Source: Jiangella mangrovi
GTDB lineage: Bacteria > Actinomycetota > Actinomycetes > Jiangellales > Jiangellaceae
Length of the DNA stretch: 64,000 nucleotides
Assembly (NCBI RefSeq): GCF_014204975.1
Contig: NZ_JACHMM010000001.1
Span: forward strand, 6,944,037 to 7,008,036
Reading direction: 5' to 3'
The position numbers were made by a program, and so were the translations under genes. Shown here piece by piece: positions 18,212 to 35,519 of the stretch (within the stretch, counting starts at the first letter, position 1; the number at the start of each line of letters is the position of its first letter). Under the pieces are notes generated by a model. It saw only the letters and a list, made by a program, of their open reading frames with translations, was not told the DNA's origin and did not search any database.

Positions 18212-19171
18212 TCAGCGCATGCGCAGCTCGCTGAGGTACCGGTAGCCGACCTCCGCCGTCTGCAGCGGGGTGACGTCCGGGGTGTCGTTCTCGACGATGT
18301 ACTCCAGCACGCGGTGCGCGCGGAAGATCTTCGCGAAGTCGATGTGCCCGGTGCCGAGGTCGGCCATGTCGCCGCCGTTCAGGTGCCGGTCCTTGACGTG
18401 GTACTGCAGCGTGCGCTGCCGTGCCTCGTCGATGACGTCGATGGCGAACTGCTCGGACTGCGCGACCGGGACGCCGCTGTTGATGCCGCCGGTCACCGCC
18501 CAGTAGAGGTCGACCTCGAGGTGGACCAGCTTCGGGTCCAGCTCCGACGTCAGCACCTCCCACGGGGTCACGCCGCCGCCGAGGTCGGTCGTGAACTCGT
18601 GGGCGTGGTTGTGGTAGCCGTAGCGCAGGCCGTACCGCCGCGCCAGCGCCGCCTCCTCGTTCATCTGCTCGGCCCACAGCTGCCAGTCGGACAGGCTGTC
18701 CGACTGCAGGAACGGGACGACGATGAACCGCTGCCCCAGCGTGGCGGCGTTCTCGAGCTTCGTCTCCAGCGACGCGCGGTCGGGGCTGATGCCGTCGTGG
18801 CTCGACGAGCACGAGATGCCGATCTCGTCGTAGAAGTCGCGCAGCTGCTCGGCGGTGCGGCCGAAGTAGCCGAGCGCCTGCTCGACCTTGGTGTAGCCGT
18901 AGTCGGCGATGGAGCGCAGCGTGGAGTCGAACAGCGCACCGGGGGCCAGCGCGTCACGCACCGTCCACAGCTGGATGCTGATCGCGCCGCGCGGCACGAT
19001 CTTGCGGCCCGTGGGCCTGGCGTCGGCCGAGGCGGGCACCGCGCCGGCGAGACCGCCGGCCAGCACACCGCCGGCCGCGGCGGCGGCGCCGAGCAGGAAG
19101 CGGCGCCGGCCCAGACCGCGCCGGGCCAGCGAGTCGTCCAGGGCCCGGTCGCCGTCGTATCCGTAACACAT
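18212..19171 (-). CDS. Tat-exported sugar phosphate isomerase/epimerase-like TIM barrel
   Basis: 319 residues. N-terminus carries a Tat signal (RRGLGRRRFLLGAAAAA, about 17-33) with Ala-rich h-region and ASA cleavage region. The mature part is an AP-endonuclease-2/xylose-isomerase-like barrel (about 60-315) with GAISIQLWTVRDAL, YGYHNHAHEF and HLEVDLYWAV, the typical metal-site surroundings. Such exported barrels act on sugars or cyclitols outside the membrane. Last gene of the operon, 46 bp after the preceding isomerase gene. Relative of 47081-48028. Confidence 0.88.
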   Translation of the reverse strand: MCYGYDGDRALDDSLARRGLGRRRFLLGAAAAAGGVLAGGLAGAVPASADARPTGRKIVPRGAISIQLWTVRDALAPGALFDSTLRSIADYGYTKVEQALGYFGRTAEQLRDFYDEIGISCSSSHDGISPDRASLETKLENAATLGQRFIVVPFLQSDSLSDWQLWAEQMNEEAALARRYGLRYGYHNHAHEFTTDLGGGVTPWEVLTSELDPKLVHLEVDLYWAVTGGINSGVPVAQSEQFAIDVIDEARQRTLQYHVKDRHLNGGDMADLGTGHIDFAKIFRAHRVLEYIVENDTPDVTPLQTAEVGYRYLSELRMR

Positions 19172-19217
19172 CGTCGTGCTCCTTTCCGGGGGGATGGTGC
19201 GGTACTGCTGCGGAGGT

Positions 19218-20225
19218 CTAGTCCGTGGAGCTGAAGGCCGCGTCGAACGCCGCCTCGGGGGCGTCGAACAGGCGGGACTTCACGAACTCGAGGGCCTCGG
19301 GGGCGCCCCGGAGCCGGTCCATGCCCGCGTCCTCCCACTCGACGGAGATGGGGCCGTCGTAGCCGATGGCGTTGAGCATCCGGAACGACTGCTCCCACGG
19401 AACGTCGCCGTGGCCGGTGGAGACGAAGTCCCAGCCGCGCCGCGGGTCCGCCCACGGCAGGTGCGAGCTGAGCCGGCCGTTGCGGCCGTTGCCGAGCTGC
19501 TTCTTCGTGTCCTTGCAGTCGACGTGGTAGATGCGGTCGCGGAAGTCCCACAGGAACGCGACGGGGTCGAGGTCCTGCCACACCATGTGGCTGGGGTCCC
19601 AGTTGAGGCCGAACGCCTCGCGGTGCCCGATGGCCTCGAGCGTCTTCACCGTCGTCCAGTAGTCGTAGGCGATCTCCGACGGGTGGACCTCGTGGGCGAA
19701 CCGCACGCCGACCTCGTCGTACACGTCGAGGATCGGGTTCCAGCGGTCGGCGAAGTCGCGGTACCCGGCCTCGATCATGTCGTCCGACGCCGGCGGGAAC
19801 ATGGCGACGTACTTCCAGATGGCCGAGCCGGTGAAGCCGACGACGGTGTTCACGCCGAGCCGGGCGGCCGCGCGCGCCGTCACCTTCATCTCCTCGGCGG
19901 CGCGCTGGCGCACGCCCTCGGGCTCACCGTCGCCCCAGATGCGGTCCGGCAGGATCGCCCGGTGCCGCTGGTCGATGGGGTCGTCGCAGACGGCCTGCCC
20001 CTTGAGGTGGTTGGAGATCGTCCAGACCTTCAGACCGTTCTTCTCGAGGATGTCCTGCCGCGACTTCACATACGCGTCGTCCTCGGCGGCGCGCCAGACG
20101 TCGAGGTGGTCGCCCCAGCAGGCGATCTCGAGGCCGTCGTAGCCCCACTCGCCGGCCAGCCGGGCCACCTCCTCGAACGGCAGGTCGGCCCACTGCCCGG
20201 TGAAGAGGGTGATCGGTCGTGCCAT
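19218..20225 (-). CDS. Sugar phosphate isomerase/epimerase-like TIM barrel
   Basis: 335 residues, no signal peptide. Metal-ligand segments of the xylose-isomerase-like superfamily are all visible: AHEVHP (Glu), NWDPSHM (Asp/His), HVDCKD (His/Asp) and SVEWED (Glu). The insert with [17 protein letters not shown] is seen in the group often paired with Gfo/Idh oxidoreductases. RBS AAGGAGA before the ATG; 39 bp after the EboF-like stop. Substrate unknown; likely a sugar or 3-keto sugar. Confidence 0.9.
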
Positions 20226-20264
20226 CGTGTGTCTCCTTCGTGCGTCGGTGCGGTGCGCGCTCGG

Positions 20265-21644
20265 TCAGTTCCGTGCGGGGGTGCCGATGCCGGCGAGCTC
20301 GAGCATGAGGTCGCGGACGTCGGTGGCGGCCAGCTGGTCGCGGGAGGCCGACGGGTCGCTGCACAGCAGCACGGGCCCGTCGGCGGGGTCGTCGGGGAGC
20401 CGTCCGTGGGTGCCGCGGACCCACTGGCCGTCCAGCGGCACGACGTTCATCGCGTAGCGCAGCCCGAGCTTCTTCTTCGCCAGGTTCGCGCCCGCGCGCA
20501 GCTTGACCCGCGGGTCGGCGGGGTCGAGGAACAGTTCGGCGGGGTCATAGCCGGGCTTGCGGTGGATCTCGACGCCGCGGGCGAAGTCGGGTGCGCGCTC
20601 GTCGTGCAGCCAGTAGTAGTAGGTGAACCAGGCGCCGAGGTCGGCCACCAGCACCAGCTCGCCGCAGCGCTCGTGGTCCAGGCCGAACTCGCGTTGCGCC
20701 TCCTTGTCGAGGACGAGGTCGACGCCCGGCAGCGCCTCGCACCGCTCGCGGACGGCCTCGAGGTCGGCGGGGTCACGCACGTAGACGTGTGCCACCTGGT
20801 GGTCGGCGACGGCGAACGCGCGCGACGCCCACGGGTCGAGGTACTCCATACCGGCCTGGGTGTAGACGTCGAGCAGCCCGGCCTGGCGCAGCATCCGGTT
20901 GACGTGCACGGGGCGGCTGGCCGGGCCGATGCCGTACTCGCTGAGGGCGACGACGGTGACGCCCTGGTTCCGCGCGTCGGTGAGCAGCGGCCCGAGCACG
21001 CGGTCGACGTCGCGGGCGGCGGTGACGGCCTGCGGGCTGTGCGGGCCGAAGCGCTGCAGGTCGTAGTCGAGGTGCGGGACGTAGGCGAGCGTGAGGTCGG
21101 CGGCCGGCATCAGCTTGCGGGTGGCCTGCACGATCCACTCGCTGGACCTGATCGACGCCGTCGGGCCCCAGTACTGGAACAGCGGGAAGTCGCCCAGCGC
21201 GCCGGTCAGCTCGTCGTGCAGCGCCGGCGGGCGGGTGTAGCAGTCCGGCGACTTGCGCCCGTCGGCGTGGTAGATCGGCCGCGGCGTCACGGTCCAGTCG
21301 GTGTCGGCGCCCATGGCGTACCACCAGCACACGTTCGCCACGGTGTACCCGGGCTGCGCGCGGCGGGCGGTGTCCCAGACCTTCTCGCCCTGGACCAGCC
21401 GGTTGTGCTGGCGCCACAGGAAGACCTCGCCGAGGTCGCGGAAGTACCAGCCGTTGCCGACGATGCCGTGGTCGCGCGGCATGGCGCCGGTGAGGAACGT
21501 CGACTGCACCGAGCAGGTCACCGCCGGCAGGACGGTGCCCAGCGAGGCCTGCCAGCCCTCCCCGGCGATCGCCCGCAGGTTCGGGGTGTGCTCCAGCAGC
21601 CGCGGCGTCAGGCCGACGACGTCGAGCACGAGCAGCTTGTTCAC
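20265..21644 (-). CDS. eboF: EboF-like alkaline phosphatase-superfamily hydrolase
   Basis: 459 residues of the type-I phosphodiesterase/nucleotide pyrophosphatase fold. N-terminal LVLDVVGLTPRLL carries the first metal Asp, AVTCSVQSTFLTG the nucleophile Thr, PHLDYDLQRFGP the second metal Asp/His cluster, and SEYGIGP the later acidic segment. The gene starts at GTG 21644 with GGAGGAG well spaced; GTG and the EboE TGA overlap by 4 bp. In ebo clusters this protein is the phosphate/phosphodiester hydrolase. It is likely cytoplasmic, as no signal was seen. Confidence 0.85.
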   Translation of the reverse strand: MNKLLVLDVVGLTPRLLEHTPNLRAIAGEGWQASLGTVLPAVTCSVQSTFLTGAMPRDHGIVGNGWYFRDLGEVFLWRQHNRLVQGEKVWDTARRAQPGYTVANVCWWYAMGADTDWTVTPRPIYHADGRKSPDCYTRPPALHDELTGALGDFPLFQYWGPTASIRSSEWIVQATRKLMPAADLTLAYVPHLDYDLQRFGPHSPQAVTAARDVDRVLGPLLTDARNQGVTVVALSEYGIGPASRPVHVNRMLRQAGLLDVYTQAGMEYLDPWASRAFAVADHQVAHVYVRDPADLEAVRERCEALPGVDLVLDKEAQREFGLDHERCGELVLVADLGAWFTYYYWLHDERAPDFARGVEIHRKPGYDPAELFLDPADPRVKLRAGANLAKKKLGLRYAMNVVPLDGQWVRGTHGRLPDDPADGPVLLCSDPSASRDQLAATDVRDLMLELAGIGTPARN

Positions 21645-22816
21645 GAAATCTCCTCCATACCGATCTCGGCCATCCGGTCGGCGACCCAGCGCAGCTCCGC
21701 CGCCAGCCCGGCCACCAGCCCGTCCGGGCCGTCCGGCCGGCGCCCCGCGGGGAGCACCGACCACGTGTACGTCTCGACCTCGACGTGGTCCGTCACGGCC
21801 CGCGCACCGCCGAACAGCCCGCGCAGCGTCGCCGTCAGGTGGTCCTGGGTGGCGGCCAGCGGCGGCTCGGGCTGCTCGTGCACCGGGACGTGGAAGTGCA
21901 CCCGCCACGGCCCGTCGTCGGGGAACGCGGCCGACGACAGCGCGGCGGGCAGGTCGTCGGCGCTGACGACGCGGCCGCCCGAGAACGCCCGGGTCTGGTG
22001 CAGGAACCGGTCCTCGGCGTACGCCGCGAGCGCCCGGCGGGCCGCGGGGTCGGCCGGGTCGCGCACCTCCAGGGCCGCCGACGCCTGGGTCTTGACGACG
22101 GGGAGCCCTGCGGCTGCGAGGGTGGCCAGTGCCTGCTCGGGCTCCTCGAACTGCGTCGCCAGATGGCAGGCGTCGAGGCAGACGCCGATGCGGTCGGTGT
22201 CGACGGCGCTCAGCTGGGCCGCCGCGCCCTCGATGGTCTCGACGACGCAGCCCGGCTCCGGTTCCAGCGCGACCCGGACCGTCCGCCCGGTCTCGGCCTC
22301 GAGCTTGGCCAGCCCCTCGGCCAGCCGGGCCAGCCGGTCGGCCGCGAGCCCGCGCCGTGCGTCGTCCCACGGCGTGCGCCAGGCCAGCGGCAGGCTCGAC
22401 ACGCTGCCGCGGACGGCGTCGTCGGGCAGCAGCGCCGCCAGCACGCGGGCGCAGTCGAGCGTGTAGGCGAGCCGCTCCGCCGTCAGCCAGTCGGGGTGGT
22501 AGACGGCCAGCTTGACCCGCGGGTCGTGGAAGCCCTGGTACGGGAAGGCGTTGAGGGTCACGACCTCGAGGCCGCCGGCCGCCAGCGCCGTGCGCAGCCG
22601 GTCGAGGTCGGCGCGGCCGGACTCCGACGCAAGCCGTGCGACCACCGGCGCCGGTAGCCAGAGGCCCAGCCCCAGCCGGGACACGCCCAGCCGCGCCCGG
22701 GCGCCGGCGCCGTACCGGCCGACCTGGTCCAGCAGCGCCTCGACGTTCTCGGTCGGGTGGACGTTCGTGCAGTACGCGAGGTGGACGACGGTGCCGTCGG
22801 CGTGGCGGAACCGCAT
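21641..22816 (-). CDS. eboE: EboE, metabolite traffic TIM-barrel protein
   Basis: 391 residues. HLAYCTNVHPTENVEAL is the family hallmark at the N-terminus; then LGLGLWLPAPVVARL, LNAFPYQGFHD, LEPEPGC, CLDACHLAT and VHFHVPVH spread through the barrel, including the acidic/His metal ligands. I take the ATG at 22816; a GTG at 22819 is also possible but leaves only 1 nt to GGAGG. The ATG overlaps the TatD TGA (TGATG). Predicted isomerase/epimerase-like role in the ebo metabolite pathway. Confidence 0.88.
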   Translation of the reverse strand: MRFRHADGTVVHLAYCTNVHPTENVEALLDQVGRYGAGARARLGVSRLGLGLWLPAPVVARLASESGRADLDRLRTALAAGGLEVVTLNAFPYQGFHDPRVKLAVYHPDWLTAERLAYTLDCARVLAALLPDDAVRGSVSSLPLAWRTPWDDARRGLAADRLARLAEGLAKLEAETGRTVRVALEPEPGCVVETIEGAAAQLSAVDTDRIGVCLDACHLATQFEEPEQALATLAAAGLPVVKTQASAALEVRDPADPAARRALAAYAEDRFLHQTRAFSGGRVVSADDLPAALSSAAFPDDGPWRVHFHVPVHEQPEPPLAATQDHLTATLRGLFGGARAVTDHVEVETYTWSVLPAGRRPDGPDGLVAGLAAELRWVADRMAEIGMEEIS

Positions 22817-23691
22817 CACGCCTCCGGGCGCTGGCCGCGCAGGATGGAATTGCCCTCGTAGGTCGCCGTCCGCCCGCCCGTCCCGGCGAGGTCGACCTCG
22901 TCGAGCAGCAGCCGGCCGCTCTGGCCGTAGAACTCGACCGGGTTCTGCCAGAGGACCTTGTCGACGTCCTCGGCGCTGAACTCCTCGGCGAGCATGGCCC
23001 GGCCGGTCTTGACCGTCTTCAGCGGGTCGCTGTGCCCCCAGTCGGCGGCGGAGTTGACGATCATCCGGTCCAGCCCGCGGTCGGCCAGGATGCGCACCAT
23101 GCGGTGCTCGTCCATCTTGGTGTCCGGGTAGATCGAGAAGCCCATCCAGCAGCCGGAGTCGGCGACCATGCCGACGGTGGTCTCGTTGAGGTGGTCGACG
23201 AGCACCCGCTCCGGCGGCAGCCCGCTCGCGGCGACCAGCTCCAGCGTCCGCTTGGTGCCGGCGGCCTTGTCGCGGTGCGGCGTGTGCACGAGCACGGGCA
23301 GGTCGTGCTCGCCGGCCAGCTCGAGCTGGCGGACGAACACCTTCTCCTCGTCGTCGGTCATCGAGTCGAAGCCCAGCTCCCCGACCGCGACGACGCCGTC
23401 CTTGGCGAGGTAGCGCGGCAGCACCTCGAGCACGCCGTGGCAGCGCGGGTCGTTGGCCTCCTTGGGGTTCAGCGCGATGGTGCAGTGGTGCCGGATGCCG
23501 AACTGCGCGGCCCGGAACCGCTCCCAGCCGACCAGCGCGTCGAAGTAGTCGACGAACGAGCCGACGTTGGTGCGCGGCTGGCCCAGCCAGAACGCCGGCT
23601 CAGTGATCGCCCGCACGCCGGCGGCGTACATGCGCTGGTAGTCGTCGGTGGTGCGCGAGGTCATGTGGATGTGGGGGTCGAAGATGCGCAT
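22816..23691 (-). CDS. eboB: EboB, TatD-family metal-dependent hydrolase
   Basis: 291 residues. Binuclear metal site residues of TatD are in place: DPHIHM, VGELGFD, LVHTPH, VDHLNE and NSAADWG. The ATG at 23691 follows the EboA stop by 2 bp. In this operon it stands at the EboB position. The exact substrate is unknown in the family. Confidence 0.88.
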   Translation of the reverse strand: MRIFDPHIHMTSRTTDDYQRMYAAGVRAITEPAFWLGQPRTNVGSFVDYFDALVGWERFRAAQFGIRHHCTIALNPKEANDPRCHGVLEVLPRYLAKDGVVAVGELGFDSMTDDEEKVFVRQLELAGEHDLPVLVHTPHRDKAAGTKRTLELVAASGLPPERVLVDHLNETTVGMVADSGCWMGFSIYPDTKMDEHRMVRILADRGLDRMIVNSAADWGHSDPLKTVKTGRAMLAEEFSAEDVDKVLWQNPVEFYGQSGRLLLDEVDLAGTGGRTATYEGNSILRGQRPEA

Positions 23692-23693
23692 CG

Positions 23694-24377
23694 TCAGGCC
23701 TCCTCGGCACCGGATTCGGACGGGACGGGGAAGCGGCCGGCCACGGCCTCGGGGTGGCGGCCGAGGATGCGCCACGCATCGGTGGGGACGGACCGCCCGG
23801 CCGCGACCCGCTCGTTGCCGTAGTCGGCGACCATGCGGGCCAGCTCCTCGTCGGTGCGGGCGTCGAGGTCGGCGACGGCGTCCAACGGCACCCCGACGAA
23901 CAGGCACTTCAGGACGCCCTGCCGCCAGGCCGCGGCGTCGAGGTGACGGGCGGCGTACGGCCCGAGCGCCGCGGCGACCAGCCGGACGTCGTTGGTGCGC
24001 AGCGCGTCGGCCACCAGCGGCAGCCCCGCGTCGGCGAGGTCGAGCTGCGGCAGCGCCCGCAGTACGGCCCGCTTCTCGTCGGCGTCGCCGAACCGGTAGA
24101 GCTGGCCGACCTCGTCGATCAGCTTCCCGGGCTCGTCGCTCCAGCCGGTCGCGGCCGCGACCAGCAGCGTCGCCCGGGCCTCGTCCTCGAGCCGCGGGCT
24201 GCGCAGCCCGTCGGGGTCGGCCGGGTTCGACGGCCCCCGGGCCACCGTGCGGCCGACGGCGGGAAACAGGACCGAGATGCGGGCCGGGTCCGCCTCGACC
24301 TCGGCGACCAGCGCGGCCAGCCGGGCCCGGGCGTCGTCGTCGAGGTGTGGCGCCGTGCGTTCGATCGTCGCGCTCAT
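23694..24377 (-). CDS. eboA: EboA-domain protein
   Basis: 227 residues, all helical. WSDEPGKLIDEVGQLYRFGDADEKRAVLRALP followed by ALGPYAARHLDAAAWRQGVLKCLFVGVPL is the EboA signature: an armadillo-like helical repeat protein of unknown biochemical role. ATGA overlap (4 bp) with the preceding isomerase gene. Confidence 0.85.
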   Translation of the reverse strand: MSATIERTAPHLDDDARARLAALVAEVEADPARISVLFPAVGRTVARGPSNPADPDGLRSPRLEDEARATLLVAAATGWSDEPGKLIDEVGQLYRFGDADEKRAVLRALPQLDLADAGLPLVADALRTNDVRLVAAALGPYAARHLDAAAWRQGVLKCLFVGVPLDAVADLDARTDEELARMVADYGNERVAAGRSVPTDAWRILGRHPEAVAGRFPVPSESGAEEA

Positions 24378-25261
24378 GAGGTTCCCTCCTCCACTCCCCC
24401 GTGTGCGGTCCCCCGTGCAGCCAGCGCCTGCGCCTCGGCGGCGCGCAGCGCGTCCAGCGATCTCCGTGCGACGGCGGGCGCTGCGTGCCCGTGCCGCGGC
24501 AGCTCGACGGCGGCCAGCCCGCCGTAGCCGACGTCGAGCAGCGCCCCCAGCGCCGCAGGCAGGTCGACCTCGCCCTCACCGAACTCGAGGTGCTCGTGCA
24601 CGCCCTCGACCATGTCGTCGACCTGCACGTTCGCCAGCAGGTCCCCGGCCTGGTGGGCGCAGTCGGCGACGGTGCCCGCCTCGTTCGCGACGACGTGCCC
24701 GATGTCCAGCGTCACCCGCAGCCCTTCGGGGTCGCCGAGCCGTTTGCGCAGCTCGAGCACGCCGCCGACGGTGTCGATGAACATCCCCGGCTCCGGCTCG
24801 AACGCGCAGAGCATGCCCCGCTTGTCCGCCTCTTCCAGCACCGCCGCGACCCCGGACGTCACGCGCCGCCAGCCCTCGTCGGCACTGACGCCGTCGGGCA
24901 GGGTGCCGGACCAGAACGACACCGCCTCGGCACCCAGCTCGGCGCCGATGCGCACCGCCCGGCAGAGCAGGTCGACCCGGCGCTCCCGCCCGGCGTCGGA
25001 CACCAGGTTCGGCTCGTGCTTGCGCCACGGGTCGAGCACGTACCGCGCGCCGGTCTCGATGACGACGGCGAGGTCCAGCTCGGCGAGGCGCTGCCCGACG
25101 GCGACCGTGCGGGCGGACAGGTTCGGCGCGTACGGGTCGAGGTGCGGGTGGTCGACGGTGAGGGCGACGCCGTCGTACCCCAGTCCCGCGATGACGGCGA
25201 GCGCGTCGTCCAGCCGGTGGCTGCCGAACCCGTTGGTTCCATAGCCGAATCGGAGAGTCAT
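24374..25261 (-). CDS. Sugar phosphate isomerase/epimerase-like protein in ebo operon
   Basis: 295 residues. LRFGYGTNGFGSHRLDDAL at the N-terminus, then GYDGVALTVDHPH, CAFEPEPGMFIDT, LDIGHVVANE, VQVDDMVEGVHEHLEFGEG and AVELPRHGH give the metal and substrate residues of the xylose-isomerase-like fold. ATG 25261 overlaps the prenyltransferase TGA by 4 bp. Second TIM barrel of the operon besides EboE; both act presumably on the cyclitol or its derivative. Confidence 0.87.
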   Translation of the reverse strand: MTLRFGYGTNGFGSHRLDDALAVIAGLGYDGVALTVDHPHLDPYAPNLSARTVAVGQRLAELDLAVVIETGARYVLDPWRKHEPNLVSDAGRERRVDLLCRAVRIGAELGAEAVSFWSGTLPDGVSADEGWRRVTSGVAAVLEEADKRGMLCAFEPEPGMFIDTVGGVLELRKRLGDPEGLRVTLDIGHVVANEAGTVADCAHQAGDLLANVQVDDMVEGVHEHLEFGEGEVDLPAALGALLDVGYGGLAAVELPRHGHAAPAVARRSLDALRAAEAQALAARGTAHGGVEEGTS

Positions 25262-26259
25262 GTCGGCGACACCACCTTCGACAGCGCCCGGACCGCCGGC
25301 CCGATCCCGACGACGGCGGCAGCGAGCGCGACCGCGCCGGACCTGGCCAGCAGCGCCGACTGCAGCGGGATGACGCCGCGCACCCCCACCCCGGTCGCCG
25401 AGCGCACGGTGGCGGCGTCGGGGTTCTGAGCCGCGCCCAGCTGCGCCCGCCCCACGGTCGCCGCGTAGACGGCCGCGAATCCGGTGGCGGCCAGCCCGCG
25501 GGCGGGCAAACCCGCAGGTAGGCGACGTCGGTTGCCCCGCTGGAGGTCTGCTGTCGGAAGTGACAGCAGACCTCGAACGCGCGTTGGAGCTTTGCTGTCG
25601 GAAGTGACAGCAGAGCTCCAGCGCGCGGAACGGTCCAGAGGGGCGGACAGGGCTGGGCGAACCGCGGGCAGGGCGGCGGCCGCGGCGGTCGCCGTCGCTC
25701 CCAACGCGACCCGCGCCGACGACGCGGACCCGCCGTGGACCTCGCCACGGCTCAGGACGGTGACGCCGGCGGTGTGGGTGGCTACCGCCAGCGCCGGCAG
25801 TGCGGCCGCCCGTTCGCGGCCGCCGGCGCCGAGCAGCACGTCCAGCCCGCGCGCGGCCGCCATGACGACGGGGCCCGCGGGCGTCGGCTTGGCCAGCAGG
25901 TCGTATGTCCACACCGTCGCCGCCAGTGGGACCGCGACCCGCAGCGCCCGCCGTCCGCCGGCGACCGCCGCCAGCCCGAGGCCGGCCGCCGTCAGCCCGG
26001 CCGCGAGACCCAGCGCCTCGGACGGCGTGACCCGGCCGGACGGGATGGGCCGCTCCGGCCGCTCCTGCTTGTCCAGGTCGCGGTCGGCGTAGTCGTTGAG
26101 GGCCATGCCGGCCCAGTAGAGGCAGGCCGAGGCGAGCGGCGCGACCGCGGTCCGGGCCCCGTACGGGAACCCGGCCGCGGCCGCGCCGGCCAGCGAGTCG
26201 CCCGGCACGGTGAGCGCCGCGGGCGCCCGTACCAGTTCGACGACGTCGCGGAACCTCAT
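25258..26259 (-). CDS. eboC: EboC-like UbiA-family prenyltransferase (SCO3242 type) with in-frame palindrome insert
   Basis: 333 residues, about eight hydrophobic helices. First Asp-rich motif NDYADRDLD and following RPIPSGRV bind prenyl diphosphate/Mg; second region YDLLAKPTPAGPVVM is the family's replacement of the usual DxxxD. Family transfers a prenyl group to a small hydroxylated acceptor. Between PALSAPLD and LPAGLPARG the protein has an insert of about 35-40 hydrophilic residues (SAVTSDSKAPT..., SLPTADLQRG) coded by two tandem palindromes at 25543-25619. The frame stays open, the last helices follow normally. ATG 26259 overlaps the INO1-like stop by 4 bp. Activity may be changed by the insert. 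Confidence 0.88.
   Translation of the reverse strand: MRFRDVVELVRAPAALTVPGDSLAGAAAAGFPYGARTAVAPLASACLYWAGMALNDYADRDLDKQERPERPIPSGRVTPSEALGLAAGLTAAGLGLAAVAGGRRALRVAVPLAATVWTYDLLAKPTPAGPVVMAAARGLDVLLGAGGRERAAALPALAVATHTAGVTVLSRGEVHGGSASSARVALGATATAAAAALPAVRPALSAPLDRSARWSSAVTSDSKAPTRVRGLLSLPTADLQRGNRRRLPAGLPARGLAATGFAAVYAATVGRAQLGAAQNPDAATVRSATGVGVRGVIPLQSALLARSGAVALAAAVVGIGPAVRALSKVVSPT
25539..25623. repeat. Two tandem hairpins inside the prenyltransferase gene
   Basis: GAGGTCTGCTGTC/GACAGCAGACCTC (25543-25555, 25562-25574) and GGAGCTTTGCTGTC/GACAGCAGAGCTCC with one mismatch (25586-25599, 25606-25619), both with the loop GGAAGT. The outer flanks CGCTGGAG and CTCCAGCG also pair. Looks like an inserted palindromic repeat, not normal coding sequence. 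Confidence 0.85.
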
Positions 26260-27413
26260 AGGGAGCCCTGGCCCGCCCGAGCGCACCAGTCCGCCAGCGC
26301 CGCCCACTGCGCGCTCAGCGCGTGCACGTCGCTGCCGGCGGGGTCCTTGAAGAAGAACCCGAACTCCTCGACCGGCCCGGCGGCGCCCAGCTCGTGCGCC
26401 CGCGCGACCAGCCGGACGAGATCCAGGACCAGCGGCGCGGCCAGCGAGGAGTCGCAGCCGGACCAGGTGAACTGCATGGTCATGCGGGTGCCGAGGAAGC
26501 CCTCGAAGGACACCAGGTCCCAGGCGGTCTTCCAGTCGCCCAGGTCGGGCACGTAGTCGATGTGCAGCGGCCCGTCGACCGGGTGGCCGAGGATCGACTC
26601 GAGGCCGTTGGCCTTCGTGGCGATCTTGCTGGCCGCGTTGGTCGGGTCGGCGAGCGTCTGCCCGTCGCCGCCGCCCAGCAGGTTGACCGACGACCACGAG
26701 CGCACCTTCAGGGCGCGCATCGCGAACATCGGCCCGAGCACGGTCTTGACCAGCGTCTCGCCGGTCTTGGCGTCGGACCCGGCCCACGGCACACCGTTGT
26801 CCAGCGCCAGCGCGAGCAGCGCCGGGACGCGTGGCCCCGGGCTCGGGGTGAACGCGACGTACGGGCAGCCGGCCCTGAACGCCGCGTACGCGTAGAGCGA
26901 GCTGCCGGGCAGCGGCGCCTCGCCCGCGTCCAGGGCGGCTTCCAGCGCCTCGAGCGTCGCCAGCGCCGGCTCGTCGCCGCCGACCGGCGGCTCGGTGCTG
27001 GAGACGTCGACGACGACCACGCGGTCCAGGCCGTGCTCGTCACGGAACGCCCGCAGCTCGGCCTCGACCCGGTCCGCCGCCGCGCGCTGTGTGCCGTGCC
27101 CGGCGACGACGCCCGGCCGGATCCGCTCGTCGGCCGCGGCGAGGTCGCCGGCCAGGACGGTGGCCAGCGCGGGCGGGAAGACCCCGCCCGCGCTCAGCTC
27201 CTCGGCCCGCTTGCCCAGCGTGCCCTCGGCGACCTCGTGGCCGCCGATGACGACGCCGTCGAGCGACGCGAGCCCGGCCGCCGCGACCTCCGGCAGCTCC
27301 GACACCATGCCGGTGTGCCCGGCCAGCCGGGACCGGATGGCCAGCAGCCCCACGGTGGTCGTGGTGGCCACGGAGCCACGGGCCCCGACGAACCAGATGC
27401 CGACCCCGCTCAT
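26256..27413 (-). CDS. Inositol-3-phosphate synthase-like protein (cyclitol-forming gene of the ebo operon)
   Basis: 385 residues. N-terminal NAD-binding Rossmann motif GIWFVGARGSVATT, GSDAKTGETLVKTVL, LLGGGDGQTLADP and ASKIATKANG with the conserved Lys residues, and the DYVPDLGDWKTAWD and FTWSGCDSSLAAPLVLDLV segments of the myo-inositol-1-phosphate synthase family. It converts a hexose 6-phosphate to a cyclitol phosphate with NAD if family activity holds. In many ebo clusters the cyclase is a 3-dehydroquinate synthase homologue (EboD); none is present here, so this protein is likely its functional counterpart. It is a divergent paralogue, not necessarily the housekeeping Ino1. ATGA overlap with the small upstream frame. 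Confidence 0.87.
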   Translation of the reverse strand: MSGVGIWFVGARGSVATTTTVGLLAIRSRLAGHTGMVSELPEVAAAGLASLDGVVIGGHEVAEGTLGKRAEELSAGGVFPPALATVLAGDLAAADERIRPGVVAGHGTQRAAADRVEAELRAFRDEHGLDRVVVVDVSSTEPPVGGDEPALATLEALEAALDAGEAPLPGSSLYAYAAFRAGCPYVAFTPSPGPRVPALLALALDNGVPWAGSDAKTGETLVKTVLGPMFAMRALKVRSWSSVNLLGGGDGQTLADPTNAASKIATKANGLESILGHPVDGPLHIDYVPDLGDWKTAWDLVSFEGFLGTRMTMQFTWSGCDSSLAAPLVLDLVRLVARAHELGAAGPVEEFGFFFKDPAGSDVHALSAQWAALADWCARAGQGSL

Positions 27414-27628
27414 GCCAGGACCCCCTCGACCCGAGCGGCCGAAGCCGCAGGGGTGGCGCCCCGGTGCCGGCGCGGAGCGCGTCGCTCCGGCACCGGGGCC
27501 GGGAACCGGCTGCTGCCGGCTCCCCGTCGACCACGAGAGCCCGGCCCGACGATCCGGGGCAGGGCCGAGGTGCCCTGGTCGCGGGTTCCGTTCCGGCGCG
27601 GTGCGCCGGGCGGCAGGTGAACTCTCAT
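27410..27628 (-). CDS. Possible small Arg/Pro-rich protein leading the ebo operon
   Basis: 72-codon frame with a strong RBS (GAGGAGACGTCACC then ATG) and a stop overlapping the next ATG (ATGA). The protein is Arg, Pro and Gly-rich with no recognised domain. It contains a 13-bp perfect hairpin (27458-27499), so it may instead be an upstream translated leader that controls the operon, or a remnant. Its RBS and position 39 bp after a ThuA-type gene match those of the membrane protein gene at 50820. Confidence 0.45.
   Translation of the reverse strand: MRVHLPPGAPRRNGTRDQGTSALPRIVGPGSRGRRGAGSSRFPAPVPERRAPRRHRGATPAASAARVEGVLA
27458..27499 (-). other. Stem-loop in operon leader
   Basis: GCCCCGGTGCCGG (27458-27470) pairs perfectly with CCGGCACCGGGGC (27487-27499); the loop holds a second small hairpin GAGCG/CGCTC. 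It lies 45 nt before the inositol-phosphate synthase start on the transcript. Could be an attenuator or internal terminator. Confidence 0.5.
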
Positions 27629-27667
27629 GGTGACGTCTCCTCTTTCAGGGGGTGGGGAGGACGGTGA

Positions 27668-30600
27668 CTACTCGGTGGCGGGCAACTCCTTGCCCTCTGT
27701 ACGGACGGGATCGCCGTCGAGACGTCCCGTTCCGGCCAGATCTTCACCGCCATTGGCCCGGACGCCCGCGGCCGCCTGCCGTGGGGTGCCGCCGAGCCGG
27801 ATGATCATCGCGTCGGCGTCGCGCAGCAGGGTGTTCTTGACCCCCGCGTCGGTCACCTTGGCGTTGACGGTGCTCTTGAACGACTCCAGCGCGATCACGG
27901 CCCGGTCCTCGCGGCCCATGCCCTCCTGGCGGCGGGCGGTGGCCAGCGACTTCTGCAGGTCCTTGGCCACCTGCGACGTGATCGTGCCGGCCGTCTGGAA
28001 CTGGGTGATCAGGCTCTCCATGTCGGCGAACGACGTGGTGGAGAAGAACACCACTTCCTGGACGGTGCTGTTGCCGGCCGAGTCGGTCGCCTCGACGACC
28101 AGCTCGTGCAGGCCCAGCGGGATGGCGTGCAGCCGGACCACGGCACCGGACTGGATGGCCGCGCCGTCGAGCGTCCCGGTGACGGTCACCGGTCCGTTGT
28201 CGGTCGCCGTCCAGGTGACGGTCAGGTTCTGGCTGTCGCCGTAGAGCTGGCCGTGCGCGATGCCGCTGACCACCAGGACCGGCGCGGACCCGTCGACGGT
28301 CACGGTGACCGCCTTGGTATCCTCGACGTTGCCCGCGGCGTCGGTCGAGCGGTACAGCAGCTCGTGCTCGCCGTCGCCGCTGACCGTGACCGGCCCGTCG
28401 TACGCGGTCCAGTCGCCGCCGTCGAGCGCCCACTCGGTGACCTCGACGCCGGAGGTGGCGTCGGTGGCCGCGAGCGTGACGTCCACGGAGCTGCCGGCGC
28501 CGTCGCCGAGGGTGGCGGTGGTGACCGGCGGGGTGGCGTCCTTCTTCACGGTGGCCGCGACGGGCTCGGAGACGTTGCCGTCCCCGTCGGTGCCGCGGAA
28601 CTCCAGGGCGTGCTCGCCGTCGGCGTCGACCACGACCGCGCCGGTGTACGGCGTCCAGTCGCCGCCGCCGATGCGGTACTCGAGCGCCACCTCGCCGCCG
28701 CCGTCGTCGGTCCCGACCGCCGCAACCGAGACCGGGCCGGTCCACCAGCCGTTCTGGCCGGTCGGCTCGGCCGGGTCGAGGGTGACCTCGACCGTCGGCG
28801 CCGTCTCGTCGACGAGCTCCTGGATGCGGATGTTGCGGAAGTAGTTCTGGTCCGCCGCACCGTGGTTCTGGATGCCGATGTAGCTGGGCTGGCTCATCCG
28901 GTTCGGGTCGGTGTCGGTGTAGTCGTTGATCAGCTCACCGTTGAGGTACACCCGGATCCGGTCGCCCTGGACCACGATCTCGTACTCGTTCCACTCGCCC
29001 GGCGGGTTCAGCGCCGCGTCGCGAGCGGCCTGGTCGGCGCCCTGGAACGCGTAGATCGCACCGGTGGTGCGGTCGGCAGCGTCCGTGGCGTCGATCTGGA
29101 TCTCGTGGCCCTGGTTGACGGCGACCCACGGGTCGTCGCCCGGGTCCGGGAACCCGACGAAGACGCCGGAGTTGTCGTCGCCCGGCATCATCCAGTCCAG
29201 CTTGAGGCTGTAGTCCTCGTAGGCGTCGGCCGAGTACCAGTACAGGCCCATGCCACCCTCGGACAGCAGCGTGCAGTCCTCGGTCAGCGTGAACCCGCCG
29301 GGACCGGCCATCTCCCAGCCGTCGAGGCTGCCCTCGGTGCCGTCGAAGAGGCTGGTGTAGCCCTCCTCGGGCGCCGTCGGCTCGCACACCTCCTGGCCGC
29401 CGGTGACGCGGAAGTACTCGTACGTCACGGTCTGCGGCTGCGACTGCGAGGTGCCGATGGCGAACAGGCCGACCTTCACGTCGCCGGACGACAGCGCCGT
29501 GTTGGTGACCGCCTCGCCCAGCTCGGTCCAGGTCTGGCCGTCGGCGCTGTAGGCGCCGGTGTAGGTGTCGCCAGACCGGGACAGCCGCAGGTGCCACACG
29601 CCCTGGGTGAGCCCCGTGACCTGGGGCTGCGGGTCCTGGATGACGGCGTCGACCTCGCTGCGCAGCTCGATGCGGCGCGCCACCGGCTGACCGGCGGGGT
29701 TGTCGACCACGAAGTCGAACTTGACGTAGTTGTCGTCGTCGCCGTGGACGATCAGGCCGCCCTGCTGGTACTGCTCGACCAGCGCGGACGCGTCGACCTG
29801 CGTCTCGATCGTCCACTCGTCGCCCGCGGGCGCCGGCTGGAGCATGAAGTTCCCCGGCAGCGGGTTGGTGTTGCCGGTGTAGATGTCGCCGTTCGGCGTG
29901 TCGATCTCGAGCTTGCCGTTCGCGAGCCGGTAGCCCGCTTCGTCGGGCCGCAGCACGGTCCAGCGGCAGCCGTCCAGGACGCTGCCGGCGAACTCGTCGT
30001 TCGGCTCCGGTGCGGTGGCGGTGTCGTCGGGCGTGATGTGGAACGAGTCGAACTGCACCTCGGTGACCGGCTGACCGGTGCCGGCCAGAGCGACCAGGCC
30101 GATCTTCGGGTTCTCGATGCCGGCCAGGCTCTTCGTCTGCGGCATCTCGGTGAAGTTCACGCCGTCGGCGCTGTACGCGGCGCGCAGGTTGCTGCCGTCG
30201 CTGATGTAGCGCACCCAGACAGTGTCGGGGTAGGCCGCGCCCAGGTTGGCGGTGTTGCTTTCGCCGACCTCGTTGGGCGCCCCGTTCTCCTCGCGGATGA
30301 ACTGGAAGATGCGCGCGGCCGGGTTGGTGGTGCCGGTGTCGCGGCCCTCGAGCACCATCTTGGCGTAGTTGTCGTCGTCGCCGTAGATGATCAGGCCGGC
30401 CTGCTGGTAGGCCCGGTAGGCCTGCATGGTCAGCTTCGCGGTCGCCGTGAACGGCCCGTCCGGCAGGTCCTGCAGGACGATGTTCGGCGTGTCGGTGTTG
30501 TTGGTGCCGTAGATGTCGGTGCTCGTGGTCGGCAGCACCAGGTGACCGTCCTCGATCACGAGGTCCTGGTTCTCACGGACCACCGTCGTCCAGCGGTCGC

Positions 30601-33600
30601 GGTTCAGCGACGTGCCGTCGAACCCGTCGGAGCGCCCGTTCAGGCAGACCGGCGGCTCCGAGACGTCCGGCTCGACCTCGATGGTGACGTGCTCGGTCGC
30701 CGCGGCGCCGCGAGCGTCGGTCACCGTCACGGAGGCGTCGTAGGTGCCCGCCTCGGTGTAGATGTGCGTCGCGTTCGCGGTGGTCGCCGAGCCGCCGTCG
30801 CCGAAGACCCACGCGTACGTGAGCGGGTCGTCGCCCTCGGGGTCGGTGGCGCTGGTCTCGAAGTCGACCTCGAGCGGTACGGTGCCGCTGGTCGGGGTCG
30901 CGGTGACCTCGACGTCGGGCCGCTGGTTGTCGGTGACACCCTGGCCGTTGAAGTCGATCCAGTTGACGTTGAGCTGCCCGGAGATGTTGACGAAGTACAG
31001 CGGGCCGCTGTCGTCGGCGGTCTCGCCGCTGACGTCGGCACTGAAGTAGTCGTACACCTGCCAGTCGCCCGTGGGCTGGACGGTGATGGTGGCCACCGTC
31101 GGGCCGTCCGGCGAGCCCGTGCGCACCTCGACCGTCGACGCGCCCGTCGGCGTCGCCGCCCGCAGCGTGATGCTGTCGATGTTGGTGAGGTTCATCGGGT
31201 CCCAGGCCCACCAGTCGCCCGGCTCGATGAAGCCGATGTTCTGACTGCCGCCCAGGACGTCGCCAGTGGTCTCGCGCTGGACGCCCGGGTCGCCGCCCGA
31301 CGTGGACCCGGACAGCCGGCCGGTGAGGTCGAAGTGCTCGGCCTCGCGCCGCTTCGGCTGCAGGATCAGGACCTCCTGGCCGGTCAGCGGGCTGACGTTC
31401 GGCGCGCCGTCGTCGGTGTACGTGACGGTGACGGTGCCGAAGATGTTCGCGCCGACGTGGCCCTCGTCGCCGGGCAGCGGGAACACGCCCTCGCAGCCGA
31501 AGTACTCGGCGTACTCGTGCGAGTGCTCGTCGTGCCCGAGCGCCGGCTGGGTGACGATGCGCGGGCACTCGGCCTGGCCGTCCTCGGCGTCGGTGGCGCC
31601 CACCTCGTAGCGGATGGTGTCGCCGAAGTCGAAGAACCCGCCGTTCGGCGGCCACGCGACCTGGACGTCGGGCGCGGTGTTGCCGGCCGCGATCTCGACG
31701 TTCGCGACGTCCTGCAGGCCGTCGCCGTCGGTGACGGTGAGCGCGACGGTGTAGTCGCCGGCCGTCGTGTAGGTGTACGACGCCTCGGGCTCCGTGGAGT
31801 CGACGGTGCCGTCGCCGTCGAAGTCCCAGGCGTAGGTGATCGGACCGCCCTCGGGGTCGATCGACGCGGTGCCGTCGAAGTCGACCTCGAGCGGCAGCGG
31901 ACCGGAGGTCGCGCTGGCGTCGATGCGGGCCACCGGCGCGCGGGTGCCCTGGACGTAGTCGATGCGGTAGACGCCGGAGTCGGTGTTGTTGCCGCCGAAG
32001 CCGCCACCCCACTCGATCATGTAGAGGGCGCCGTCGGGACCCCACTGCAGCGCGTGCGGCCGCAGGATCGCCCAGTCCGGGAAGACCGCGTTGATGTCGG
32101 TGACGTTCGTCCCGGCGTCGTTGAGCTGGAACGAGTACAGGTTGCCCTGGTTCCACTCACCGAAGATCGCCTTGCCGTCCCAGTACGCCGGCCACTTGCG
32201 CTCCGACACCAGGTCCGGGTCGTAGCGGTAGACGCCGCCCGCCATGGGCGCGCCGCCGCCGCCGATCTCCGGGTACAGCGGGTTGGTCTGGTAGCCGTAC
32301 CAGACCTCCGCCTCGATGGCGGCCGGCAGCTGGGTCAGGCCGGTGTTGTTCGGCGAGTTGTTCACCGGGGCGCCACAGTCGAACGCCGCGCCGGAGGCGT
32401 TGGTGGCGAAGTCGAAGTCGATGTACGGCGTGTTGTTGCCGACGCAGTACGGCCACCCGTAGAAGCCGGGCTGGTCGACGATGTTCCACTCGACCCGGCC
32501 GTCGGGGCCGCGGCTGGGGTTGGCGCTGCCGGCGTCGGGACCGTAGTCGGCGACCATGAGCTTGTTCGTCGCCGGGTCCAGGCCGATGCGGAACGGGTTG
32601 CGGAAGCCCATCGCGAAGATCTCGGGCCGGGTCTGCGCGGTGCCCGGCGGGAACAGGTTGCCCGCGGGGATCGAGTACCCGCCCGCGTCCAGCGGGGTGA
32701 TGCGCAGCACCTTGCCGCTCAGGCTGTTGGTGTTGGCCGAGGTGCGCTGGGCGTCCCAGAGCTCGCGGCCGGGCCGCTCGTCGATGGGCGCGTAGCCGCT
32801 GGAGGCGAACGGGTTCGTGTTGTCGCCGGTGGTGAGGTACAGGTTGCCGTCGGTGTCGAACTCCAGCGCGCCGCCCGCGTGGCAGCACTCGACCCGGTTG
32901 GTCGGGTACTCGAGGATGACGGTCTCGCTCGCCAGGTCCAGCGTCTCGCCGGTGAGGGTGAACCTCGCCACCCGGTCGATCGCGGCGCTCCCCGTCGGGG
33001 CGTAGGTGAGGTAGATCCAGCCGTTCGTGGTGAAGTCCGGATCGAGGGCGATGCCCATGAGGCCGAACTCCTGGCCGGTGTACACGCTCAGCGTGCCGAC
33101 GGTGGTGGCCGAGCCGTCCGGCCGGACCAGGCGCACGGCGCCGTTGCGGTCGATGTAGAAGACCCGGCCGTCGTCGGCGACCGCCAGCTCCATCGGGTTG
33201 CTGGTGGTGTCGTCGAGGGTGACCTTCTCGAAGCTGTCCGGCTTGCTCGCCGCGCAGTCGGCCGGGGTGACGCCCGCGGCGGTCTCGATGCCGCCGAGCA
33301 GCATCTGCAGGAACGCCGGCTCGGAGTAGGACTCCTGGGTGTGGCCGAGGCCGGTGTACCAGGAGCGCCCGCCGTCGTAGTCCTGGCACCAGGTGATCGG
33401 GTGGTCGGCCCCCATGGCGCCGTTGCCCGGCGAGTAGGACTTCTCGTCCAGCGACGTCAGCACGTGCACGTCGCCGCGCGGGTTGTCCTGGTAGTTGTAC
33501 CACTCGTCGAAGCGCGACCAGAGTGGGTCGAGGTGCTGGGTCGACGGGTGCGCCGGGTCCTCCACCTTGACCGTCGCGGTCTGGTTCTGCGGGTGGCTGG

Positions 33601-34196: not shown

Positions 34197-35390
34197 TCAG
34201 GCGGGTGCGGGCACCTCCGTCCAGGCGCTCCCGGCTGCGGCGCTGTCCTCGACGGCGGCCAGGATGCGCTGCACGTTCAGGCCGTCGGCGAACGACGGCT
34301 CCGGGTCGCGGCGCTCGGCGATCGCCGTCAGCAGGTCGACCGCCTGGTGCGTGAAGGCGTGCTCGTAGCCGAGGCCGTGACCCGCGGGCCACCAGGCGCT
34401 CACGTACGGGTGGCTGGGCTCGGTGACCAGCACCCGCTTGAAGCCGGCCACCCGAGCGTCCTCGGTGTGGTCGTAGACGTTCAGGACGTTCATGTCCTCG
34501 AAGTCGAACGCCAGGCTGCCGTTCGACCCGTTGATCTCGATGCGGATGGCGTTCTTGCGCCCCGTCGCGAACCGGGTCGCCTCGTACGTCGCCACCGCTC
34601 CCCCGGTGAACCGGGCCAGGAAGACCGCGGTGTCGTCGACGGTGACAGGCCCCAGCTCGGCCGCGACCGGCGCACTGCCGGCGAGGCCGGTGAACGACTC
34701 GGGCACCGGGCGCTCCTTGACGAACGTCTCGAGGATCGCGCTGACACCGGTGATGCGCTCGCCGGTGATGTACTGCGTCAGGTCGATGATGTGCGCCCCG
34801 ATGTCGCCCAGCGCGCCGGAGCCGGCCTTGTCCTTCTGCAGCCGCCACGACAGCGGCGCGTCGGGGTCGGCGATCCAGTCCTGCAGGTACTGGGCGCGGA
34901 CGTGGCGGATCTGGCCGACGCGGCCCTCGGCCACCAGCTGCCGGGCCAGCGCGATGGCCGGGACCCGCCGGTAGGTGAAGCCGACCAGGCTGCGCACGCC
35001 CGACTCCGCCGCCTTCTCCGCGGCCGCCACCATGGCCTCGGCCTCGGCGACGGTGTTGGCCAGCGGCTTCTCGCAGAGCACGTGTTTGCCGGCCTCGAGG
35101 GCCGCGATCGCGATCTCGGCGTGGGTGTCGCCGGGCGTGCAGACGTCGACGAGTCCCACGTCGTCGCGCGCGACGAGCTGCCGCCAGTCGGTCTCGACAC
35201 TCTCCCAGCCGAAGCGTCTGGCGACGTCGCCGGCCGCTTCGGCGTTCCGGCCGCCCAGCGCGACGAGGCGCGGGACGAGCGGAACGTCGAAGAAGCTGTA
35301 GGCGTTGCGCCAGGCCTGGGAGTGGGCCGCCCCCATGAACGCGTAGCCCACCATGCCGATGCCGAGTGCCGGCGTGTCGTCAACCGTCAT
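34197..35390 (-). CDS. Gfo/Idh/MocA-family NAD(P)-dependent oxidoreductase
   Basis: 397 residues. N-terminal Rossmann domain GIGMVGYAFMG, DVCTPGDTHAE and the diagnostic HVLCEKPLA near residue 105-113; C-terminal sheet domain with GGAVATYEATRFATGR and GYEHAFTHQAVDLL. Family members include ThuB, which oxidises disaccharide C3 to the 3-keto form. It lies beside ThuA- and DUF1080-containing genes, so glycoside 3-oxidation is the leading guess. RBS AGGAAAGG before the ATG. It follows a strong terminator, so it has its own promoter. Confidence 0.9.
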   Translation of the reverse strand: MTVDDTPALGIGMVGYAFMGAAHSQAWRNAYSFFDVPLVPRLVALGGRNAEAAGDVARRFGWESVETDWRQLVARDDVGLVDVCTPGDTHAEIAIAALEAGKHVLCEKPLANTVAEAEAMVAAAEKAAESGVRSLVGFTYRRVPAIALARQLVAEGRVGQIRHVRAQYLQDWIADPDAPLSWRLQKDKAGSGALGDIGAHIIDLTQYITGERITGVSAILETFVKERPVPESFTGLAGSAPVAAELGPVTVDDTAVFLARFTGGAVATYEATRFATGRKNAIRIEINGSNGSLAFDFEDMNVLNVYDHTEDARVAGFKRVLVTEPSHPYVSAWWPAGHGLGYEHAFTHQAVDLLTAIAERRDPEPSFADGLNVQRILAAVEDSAAAGSAWTEVPAPA

Positions 35391-35430
35391 GTGCGTTGCC
35401 TTTCCTGTCAGTGCCCCCGTTGGTGACGGC

Positions 35431-35478: not shown

Positions 35479-35519
35479 GTTCCGTCCTGGATCCGTACCC
35501 GAGCCTGTCCCCGTCCCCG

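Follow-up and report, generated by a model that had tools for sequence, protein, structure and literature searches.

Which enzyme could form the cyclitol in an ebo-type operon that has no EboD? The question is raised by an operon of Jiangella mangrovi (assembly GCF_014204975.1, a 7.16-Mb genome in a single contig), which lies within a stretch of 64,000 nt that was analysed in full and is referred to here as the window (NZ_JACHMM010000001.1, positions 6,944,037-7,008,036, forward strand). In the operon eboABCDEF, described for Bacteroidetes, Cyanobacteria and eustigmatophyte plastids in passages of PMC5133447, PMC6282210 and PMC6092422, the sugar-phosphate cyclase EboD is encoded together with EboA, the TatD-like EboB, a UbiA prenyltransferase (EboC), EboE and the PF01663 protein EboF. 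The window operon shares EboA, EboB, a UbiA prenyltransferase, EboE and EboF, but differs in the absence of EboD, in the presence of an Ino1-like gene (myo-inositol-phosphate synthase [MIPS] fold) and of a xylose-isomerase-like TIM barrel (TIM3), and in having a prenyltransferase of the SCO3242 family. The order of its genes, on the reverse strand, is Ino1, prenyltransferase, TIM3, EboA, EboB, EboE and EboF, followed by two further TIM barrels.

This gene content and order are conserved, and the Ino1-like protein is distinct from the mycothiol Ino1. Ino1 most likely replaces EboD as the cyclitol-forming enzyme of the operon, which is called ino-ebo below. Five comparative observations point to this exchange: the retention of the seven-gene order, the co-occurrence of EboE with an ebo-type Ino, the mutual exclusion of Ino and EboD, a set of invariant lysines, and the existence of haloarchaeal relatives.

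Conservation of the operon and exclusion of EboD

The comparison covers 65 loci, comprising 41 from a scan of genome contigs for EboE, nine plasmid loci, 14 further genome stretches and the window, all tabulated by tblastn; as every locus was found through EboE, its presence is given by construction. The 41 contig loci come from Jiangella, Haloactinopolyspora, Streptomyces, Amycolatopsis, Prauserella, Saccharomonospora, Actinophytocola, Sphaerisporangium, Microbispora, Phycicoccus, Micromonospora and one unassigned metagenome-assembled genome, and whole-genome sampling was confined to Actinomycetota. EboB, EboE and EboF occur in all 65 loci, the prenyltransferase in 64 (the remaining locus is cut by a contig end), EboA in 63, TIM3 in 59, Ino in 55 and EboD in four. 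In all but one of the 55 Ino-bearing loci (54) the seven genes share a single strand and exactly the same order, the exception being L057, a plasmid of Gemmatirosa (Gemmatimonadota). In support of an expectation of an earlier note on this DNA, that Ino1 would always adjoin the prenyltransferase, the two are neighbours in 54 of these 55 loci.

A similar association appears at the level of whole genomes. EboE exceeds its cut-off in 13 of 296 Actinomycetota genomes, J. mangrovi included, and a model of ebo-type Ino (A1), scored on at most six candidates per genome, reaches at least 470 bits in these same 13 and in no others, the remaining genomes of the 296 giving 349 bits at most. A fourteenth genome (G279) carries EboE in two sub-threshold pieces.

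Ino and EboD are found together in none of the 65 loci. As the earlier note had stated, the window cluster contains no EboD gene: it has no member of PF01761, the EboD family, and the sole member in the genome is a 533-codon frame located 2.6 Mb away. An EboD of this operon hidden elsewhere in the genome, which the note had named as evidence that would count against it, is therefore rejected, as judged by PF01761 only. PF01761 matches are likewise remote in all 24 other ebo-bearing genomes (11 came from the loci and 13, including G279, from the phylum draw), being either on other contigs or on the same contig at least 93 kb from the ebo genes.

Plasmids extend this comparison to other phyla. 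EboE is present in 48 plasmid records, of which 32 are actinobacterial and 16 are not, and nine of the latter were opened. In eight of the nine (L053-L056 and L182-L185) an EboD annotated as 3-dehydroquinate synthase lies next to or near EboE, and neither Ino nor TIM3 gave a tblastn match in these eight EboD-type loci; Ino also had no match across the whole plasmid records of L053-L056. The EboB proteins of three of these clusters (L053, L055 and L056) are 52-58% identical to that of the window over the best piece, and that of L054 is 39% identical. Close to its EboD cluster, L056 carries another annotated sugar phosphate isomerase. The ninth plasmid, that of Gemmatirosa, contains Ino and TIM3 with no EboD match, and among the actinobacterial records Ino co-occurs with EboE in 28 of 32.

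The Ino1-like protein

The first gene of the operon encodes a member of the MIPS superfamily, with both Pfam domains and the catalytic lysines in place. The nearest structure in the Protein Data Bank is the Archaeoglobus fulgidus MIPS 1u1i (237.5 bits over residues 6-378), which resembles the operon protein in its near full-length homology and catalytic lysines and differs in operon context. In the window protein, K267 and K356 are the counterparts of the residues altered in structures 3qvw and 3qvx, and D214, K216, K263, K267, K295, D321 and K356 are invariant in all 55 ebo-type and all three haloarchaeal Ino sequences. Since these residues are invariant there, and in the other Ino classes compared, the ring-closing chemistry is likely to be kept in ebo-Ino, although they do not reveal the identity of the cyclitol.

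Within the same superfamily, the operon protein lies far from the mycothiol Ino1, scoring 28.4 bits on TIGR03450 against a cut-off of 638. A separate mycothiol Ino1 is encoded in the same genome (C1:1858453-1859502; 692 bits), so that the operon copy is not the only one, an outcome that the earlier note had also named as counting against it. In a tree of 74 rows, in which all Ino sequences differ and the roots are arbitrary, actinobacterial ebo-Ino stands apart from mycothiol Ino1 and from the other classes, in agreement with the separate clade that had been anticipated; Gemmatirosa, a flagged long branch, is the sole row placed elsewhere. By its TIGR03450 score, the separate genomic copy and its distinct tree group, the operon protein is rejected as the mycothiol or housekeeping synthase.

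These data also bear on the idea that a housekeeping inositol synthase has come to lie near ebo genes by chance. Genome G268, where no Ino1 other than the ebo-type copy was found, is what such an account would lead one to expect. However, a separate mycothiol Ino1 is present here and in 20 of the 24 other ebo-bearing genomes (of the 24, 18 score above the TIGR03450 cut-off, two come close to it, with 606 and 603 bits, and four lack a member), three of the remaining four (G051, G075 and G097) carry another Ino class, and a gene order kept in 54 of 55 Ino-bearing loci, like the distribution as a whole, disfavours coincidence. Chance placement is extremely unlikely.

Relatives of the operon in haloarchaea and YcaO clusters

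A search of plasmids for Ino also matched haloarchaea, among them Halocatena (L172), Halobaculum (L173) and Natronococcus (L174), in which TatD-like, UbiA and Ino genes, two genes for xylose-isomerase-like TIM barrels and PF01663-type genes lie together. In L172, the cluster whose protein families were scanned, EboB and Ino are 47% and 45% identical to the window proteins, and UbiA scores 178.2 bits on the EboC model and 164.5 bits on the SCO3242 model, both below cut-off. EboA and EboD had no match, and the two TIM barrels of L172 reach only 27 and 20.6 bits on the EboE model. For these two reasons the haloarchaeal cluster is taken as a related cluster and not a member of ebo. Haloferax volcanii, used as a control, was below cut-off in the EboE search. 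The neighbours of L172 include ThuA and BMP-type ATP-binding cassette (ABC) transport genes, and those of L174 a pyrroloquinoline quinone (PQQ)-dependent sugar dehydrogenase and BMP-type transport genes.

The kinship of the Ino proteins is seen in a 40-row tree with an arbitrary root. Actinobacterial ebo-Ino (20 rows), haloarchaeal Ino (the three above and L175) and Gemmatirosa fall together on one side of a branch with 100/100 support. The other side holds a class of nine rows that includes YcaO clusters, YcaO itself being shown in L145, L148, L176 and L177, and another class of six rows.

The YcaO-associated stretches L145, L148, L176 (Roseomonas) and L177 (Hymenobacter) combine Ino1, YcaO and a TIM3-like barrel with a varying glycosyltransferase, PIG-L deacetylase or Gfo/Idh/MocA gene, and are distributed over Actinomycetota, Alphaproteobacteria and Bacteroidota. 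They share with ino-ebo the clustering of Ino1 with a TIM3-like barrel; unlike it, they contain no ebo-gene matches and their Ino belongs to another branch. The pairing of glycosyltransferase and deacetylase recalls mycothiol-type logic, here with YcaO as an addition.

Observations that weigh against replacement

Several observations weigh against the replacement of EboD by Ino1. Ten loci have no Ino; beyond three cut by contig ends (L012, L015 and L046) and the four EboD clusters L053-L056, there are three true local absences (L040, L077 and L089). Of the four actinobacterial plasmid records without Ino, three are Streptomyces plasmids whose ebo set is incomplete, consisting of a lone EboE in a type II polyketide synthase (PKS) cluster with flavin adenine dinucleotide (FAD) monooxygenases (L179) or of EboB-EboE-EboF only (L180 and L181), and in the fourth, from S. 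fungicidicus, the EboE match falls at the record end. The exclusivity of Ino and EboD may also partly reflect lineage, because EboD-type loci are few (eight examined out of 15 plasmid records of this kind) and come from other phyla. In G268 the lone ebo-Ino may also serve housekeeping, in G051 the Ino gene has one in-frame TGA, and the archaeal Ino L175, on the same branch as ebo-Ino, resides among glycosyltransferases without ebo matches. The lysines recur in every Ino class compared and are hence not specific to ebo-Ino. Finally, passages of the scytonemin work read ebo as an export module (PMC6282210), and by analogy with an EboC homologue, Ubi-297, described in part of PMC9235831, the acceptor of the operon prenyltransferase may be aromatic.

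In favour of the replacement, wherever the local Ino is gone and the genome could be searched, Ino is found elsewhere. L040 (Microbispora rosea, 6302-6988) retains a 33-codon Ino remnant directly before the prenyltransferase, and the same genome has an intact ebo-type Ino on a different contig, beside a TIMi gene (TIMi being the first barrel after EboF in the window). L077 is the second of two ebo copies in genome G128, and Ino is present in the first. In the genome of L089, where EboE lies in two frames, an Ino and TIM3 pair of another Ino class is present on another contig.

Operon layout and family assignments

The coordinates of the operon and its surroundings are collected in Table 1. Family scores bear out the earlier description in placing an Ino1-like gene at the head of the operon, in recognizing EboA, EboB, EboE and EboF, and in pointing to additional TIM barrels, one with a twin-arginine (Tat) motif; these are TIMi and TIMt, downstream of EboF. 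That description had also portrayed the ebo genes as a chain of 4-bp overlaps. A check of start codons finds such overlaps at five of the six junctions (Ino/prenyltransferase, prenyltransferase/TIM3, TIM3/EboA, EboB/EboE and EboE/EboF), and a 2-bp gap between EboA and EboB (position 23697 reads CTG) rules them out for the full set. At EboB/EboE the overlap is 4 bp with the GTG start and 1 bp if EboE begins at the next codon, ATG. EboF is separated from TIMi by 39 bp, and TIMi from TIMt by 46 bp. The closest named protein relatives are from Jiangella species, with identities to J. ureilytica of 95% for Ino1 and 94% for EboE.

Table 1. Features of the operon and adjoining regions in the window
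Feature	Position	Strand	Evidence and remarks
TIMt, TIM barrel with Tat motif RRRFLLG near N-terminus	18212..19171	-	PF01261 51.6 bits
TIMi, TIM barrel	19218..20225	-	2zds 584 bits; 8ro4 138.7 bits; TIGR04379 (IolE) 42.7 bits, cut-off 290
EboF, type I phosphodiesterase/nucleotide pyrophosphatase	20265..21644	-	PF01663 228.8 bits, cut-off 23; GTG start
EboE, TIM barrel	21641..22819	-	NF035939 411.8 bits, cut-off 250; GTG start, ATG at 22816 possible
EboB, TatD-like metallohydrolase	22816..23691	-	PF01026 55.9 bits, cut-off 27; first ATG 23691
EboA	23694..24377	-	NF035938 173 bits, cut-off 50
TIM3, xylose-isomerase-like (AP_endonuc_2) TIM barrel	24374..25261	-	PF01261 118.2 bits
UbiA-superfamily prenyltransferase, SCO3242 family, EboC position	25258..26259	-	NF045897 378.8 bits; NDYADRDLD motif
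Ino1-like (MIPS fold), 385 aa, first gene of operon	26256..27413	-	PF07994 148.5 bits; PF01658 110.7 bits
Structured leader RNA (three-way junction and two long hairpins), directly 5' of Ino	27441..27639	-	Model R1 match; covariation
ThuA/glucose-sorbosone dehydrogenase/3-keto-disaccharide hydrolase protein, 2130 aa, signal-like N-terminus	27668..34060	-	
Gfo/Idh/MocA oxidoreductase, sugar-type substrate-binding protein, permease and ABC ATPase	34197..39291	-	Upstream of operon

EboE, EboB and EboF all exceed the cut-offs of their families, and EboA exceeds that of the domain model, with 87.9 bits against 320 on the family model NF035937. The prenyltransferase had been described as EboC-like, which is correct in that a UbiA enzyme occupies the EboC position; it belongs, however, to the SCO3242 family of NCBIfam (cut-off 260) and reaches only 132.6 bits against a cut-off of 250 on the EboC equivalog NF035940. 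As both EboD and the EboC equivalog of the six-gene operon are missing, ino-ebo is classed as a variant of ebo, one that probably works like ebo despite the lack of these two defining features.

Within the prenyltransferase gene (25538..25625) are two adjacent palindromic 44-bp units that leave the frame intact. A similar insert is found in L010, L014 and L018 and none in L011 and L013, and there are 14 overlapping matches at four sites in the genome. The insert resembles a palindromic element tolerated in a protein loop.

TIM3 is absent from all eight EboD-type loci, and in six loci (L041, L042, L046, L047, L058 and L087) TIM3 and EboA share one stop-free open frame. Such fusions probably account for the hybrid EboA proteins of actinobacteria noted in passages of PMC5133447, in which xylose-isomerase-like domains are fused to EboA.

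Predicted pathway and its product

In the proposed scheme, Ino1 and a dedicated TIM3 would take the place of EboD in an ebo-type biosynthetic operon that leads from a hexose phosphate to a prenylated cyclitol with a role in export or finishing; we put the chances of this entire account at about even. Judging from its fold and invariant residues, Ino1 would use conserved nicotinamide adenine dinucleotide (NAD) and lysine chemistry to cyclise glucose-6-phosphate or a similar hexose phosphate, yielding an inositol phosphate. Isomerisation or dehydration of the cyclitol could fall to TIM3 and EboE, and the loss of a phosphate or blocking group to EboB and EboF; the prenyltransferase in the membrane would attach an isoprenoid to the cyclitol-derived acceptor. 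The membrane-held product might serve the export, or the finishing outside the cell, of a partner metabolite, by analogy with the role of ebo in scytonemin export, and such a role would be in keeping with the oxidising enzymes of secreted type often encoded beside the module.

A prenylated-cyclitol product, which we infer for ino-ebo as the earlier note did, has already been proposed for the EboD version of ebo in passages of PMC5133447 and PMC6092422, and ebo has been tied to export of the scytonemin monomer in passages of PMC6282210. That a cyclitol is the starting point of the pathway, as those papers suggest, would gain independent comparative support from the exchange of EboD for Ino: an enzyme of a different family with similar chemistry, namely NAD-dependent closure of a sugar-phosphate ring, appears to act in place of EboD in a module whose other genes are retained. 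Ino1 also points to a substrate class, hexose phosphates, that a single soluble enzyme would suffice to test. The operon occurs in 13 of the 296 sampled Actinomycetota genomes and on one Gemmatimonadota plasmid, with a related form on haloarchaeal plasmids, so that a search for the compound could draw on many strains. The word "inositol" is absent from the main text of PMC5133447 (2016), and no published link among an SCO3242-type prenyltransferase, an inositol phosphate synthase and ebo was found in searches of the open-access literature outside bioRxiv, within which the variant is so far unreported.

UbiA enzymes mostly use aromatic acceptors, and the prenylated product could conceivably be aromatic. 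The product of Ino1 would then be oxidised and dehydrated, through an inosose to a polyhydroxybenzene, by the TIM barrels, four of which, all AP_endonuc_2, are encoded within the operon, and be prenylated to a quinol-like electron-carrier lipid for exported sugar dehydrogenases. Glucose/sorbosone dehydrogenase (GSDH) and Gfo/Idh/MocA genes are indeed located nearby, as is the PQQ-dependent sugar dehydrogenase beside L174, but no inositol dehydrogenase is among the conserved seven genes. Ubi-297, a flavobacterial EboC homologue from Maribacter described in part of PMC9235831, offers evidence of both kinds. It farnesylates aromatic acids, accepting six of 14 aromatic acceptors; these are of quinoline type, with 8-hydroxyquinoline-2-carboxylic acid as the best, and the acceptors in that account are aromatic only. 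With phenols or catechols it gave no product, which tells against a polyhydroxybenzene. An aromatic product is unlikely on balance, though by no means negligible.

A broader claim builds on the cyclitol scheme and its aromatic counterpart together. A single pathway spanning Actinomycetota, Gemmatimonadota and haloarchaea might convert glucose-6-phosphate through inositol phosphate to a new membrane lipid, an isoprenoid-cyclitol or inositol-derived quinol, which would carry a metabolite or electrons across the membrane with secreted ThuA and PQQ-type sugar dehydrogenases. Taken jointly, these propositions are quite unlikely to be true in every part. Were they so, EboD and Ino1 would be two unrelated answers to one need, that of a ring made from a sugar phosphate.

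Genomic surroundings

The neighbours of ino-ebo in the window differ from those at other loci, such as L051, L052 and L059. In L052, a Streptomyces plasmid (2966-14606), a ScyD/ScyE-family protein is encoded directly before ino-ebo and a multicopper oxidase shortly after it, a setting that recalls the scytonemin context. By analogy with the scytonemin export model (passages of PMC6282210), we read ino-ebo as a module with a varying partner.

Varying neighbours could be taken further, to mean that the Ebo proteins are an export machine for variable metabolites, with Ino1 providing an inositol phosphate headgroup or handle for the cargo. The lone EboE inside the type II PKS cluster of L179 would suit such a role, as would SCO3242 and SCO3243 of Streptomyces coelicolor, which are counted with the CDA cluster genes in passages of PMC3610822 that draw no link to ebo. 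Compared by name alone, these two are like the window pair in being a transferase and a myo-inositol phosphate synthase, with consecutive numbers. Pure traffic leaves unexplained, however, both the mutual exclusion of Ino and EboD and the constancy of the prenyltransferase, present in every locus but the one cut by a contig end. Such a role, too, is unlikely, while retaining some weight.

Upstream of the operon lie genes suggestive of sugar breakdown (Table 1). Searches of the 65 loci with the ThuA, TIMi and TIMt proteins as queries matched in 43, 33 and 31 loci, respectively, some perhaps being general family matches. The relatives of TIMi include 2zds and the 2-hydroxy-3-keto-glucal hydratase 8ro4, and its similarity to IolE is weak. 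The operon could accordingly be an appendage of an adjoining 3-keto-glycoside-type locus, with ABC uptake, Gfo/Idh/MocA, ThuA/hydrolase and TIMi functions devoted to the catabolism of a sugar or inositol: ThuA, 3-keto-disaccharide hydrolase and Gfo/Idh domains adjoin it, and the ThuA and TIMi matches recur across the loci. Yet the seven-gene order is kept where no such neighbours were found (for example, L051, L052 and L058), and it is hard to see what a prenyltransferase would do in the degradation of sugars. A catabolic role is highly unlikely.

Further upstream in the window are genes for ROK regulators (39288-40862 and 48304-49497), a GSDH/PKD protein (41024-43150) and an AP_endonuc_2 TIM barrel with an RRRFLG motif (47081-48172). 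The ROK, GSDH/PKD and TIM genes of 39288-48172 resemble genes around ino-ebo.

A structured leader RNA upstream of Ino

The interval between the ThuA gene and Ino harbors a structured RNA, whose model comprises 199 positions and 66 base pairs. In an alignment fitted to this model (27 rows, two of them reverse-strand matches, and 22 distinct), 96.5% of cells on the distinct rows pair, and 17 of the 66 pairs have changed on both sides, in 52 such cells; none of 500 shuffles scored as high. No Rfam family reaches its gathering score within the window, and the best sub-threshold match on the leader strand has 23.3 bits against 80, so an Rfam identity for the leader is rejected. An open frame in the same interval stays open in seven of seven sequences. 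Six comparisons with the window, each of 57 codons and not independent of one another, yield 46 non-synonymous and 12 synonymous codon differences. Because the differences are mostly non-synonymous while base pairing is kept, the frame is rejected as a protein gene in favour of an RNA.

The leader was seen in Jiangellaceae only, namely in 14 of 22 genomes of the family and, with stricter filters, in nine of 148 genomes of the class, all Jiangellaceae; it is therefore rejected as a general feature of ebo. A second, diverged copy occurs in the window at 50663-50831 on the reverse strand, about 23 kb upstream of the first, where it overlaps the start of a 260-aa gene without a Pfam match. This second copy is detected in 11 of 12 Jiangella genomes by model R1 and in the twelfth, G307, by R2, and the two copies are 21-25 kb apart wherever they share a contig (10 of 12). 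Each is preceded by a ThuA/GSDH/3-keto-disaccharide-hydrolase gene, the one before the second leader (50861..55690) being a paralogue of that before the first, with 48% identity over 1077 aligned positions. As both leaders follow paralogous genes, the simple reading would be an old duplication of gene plus leader.

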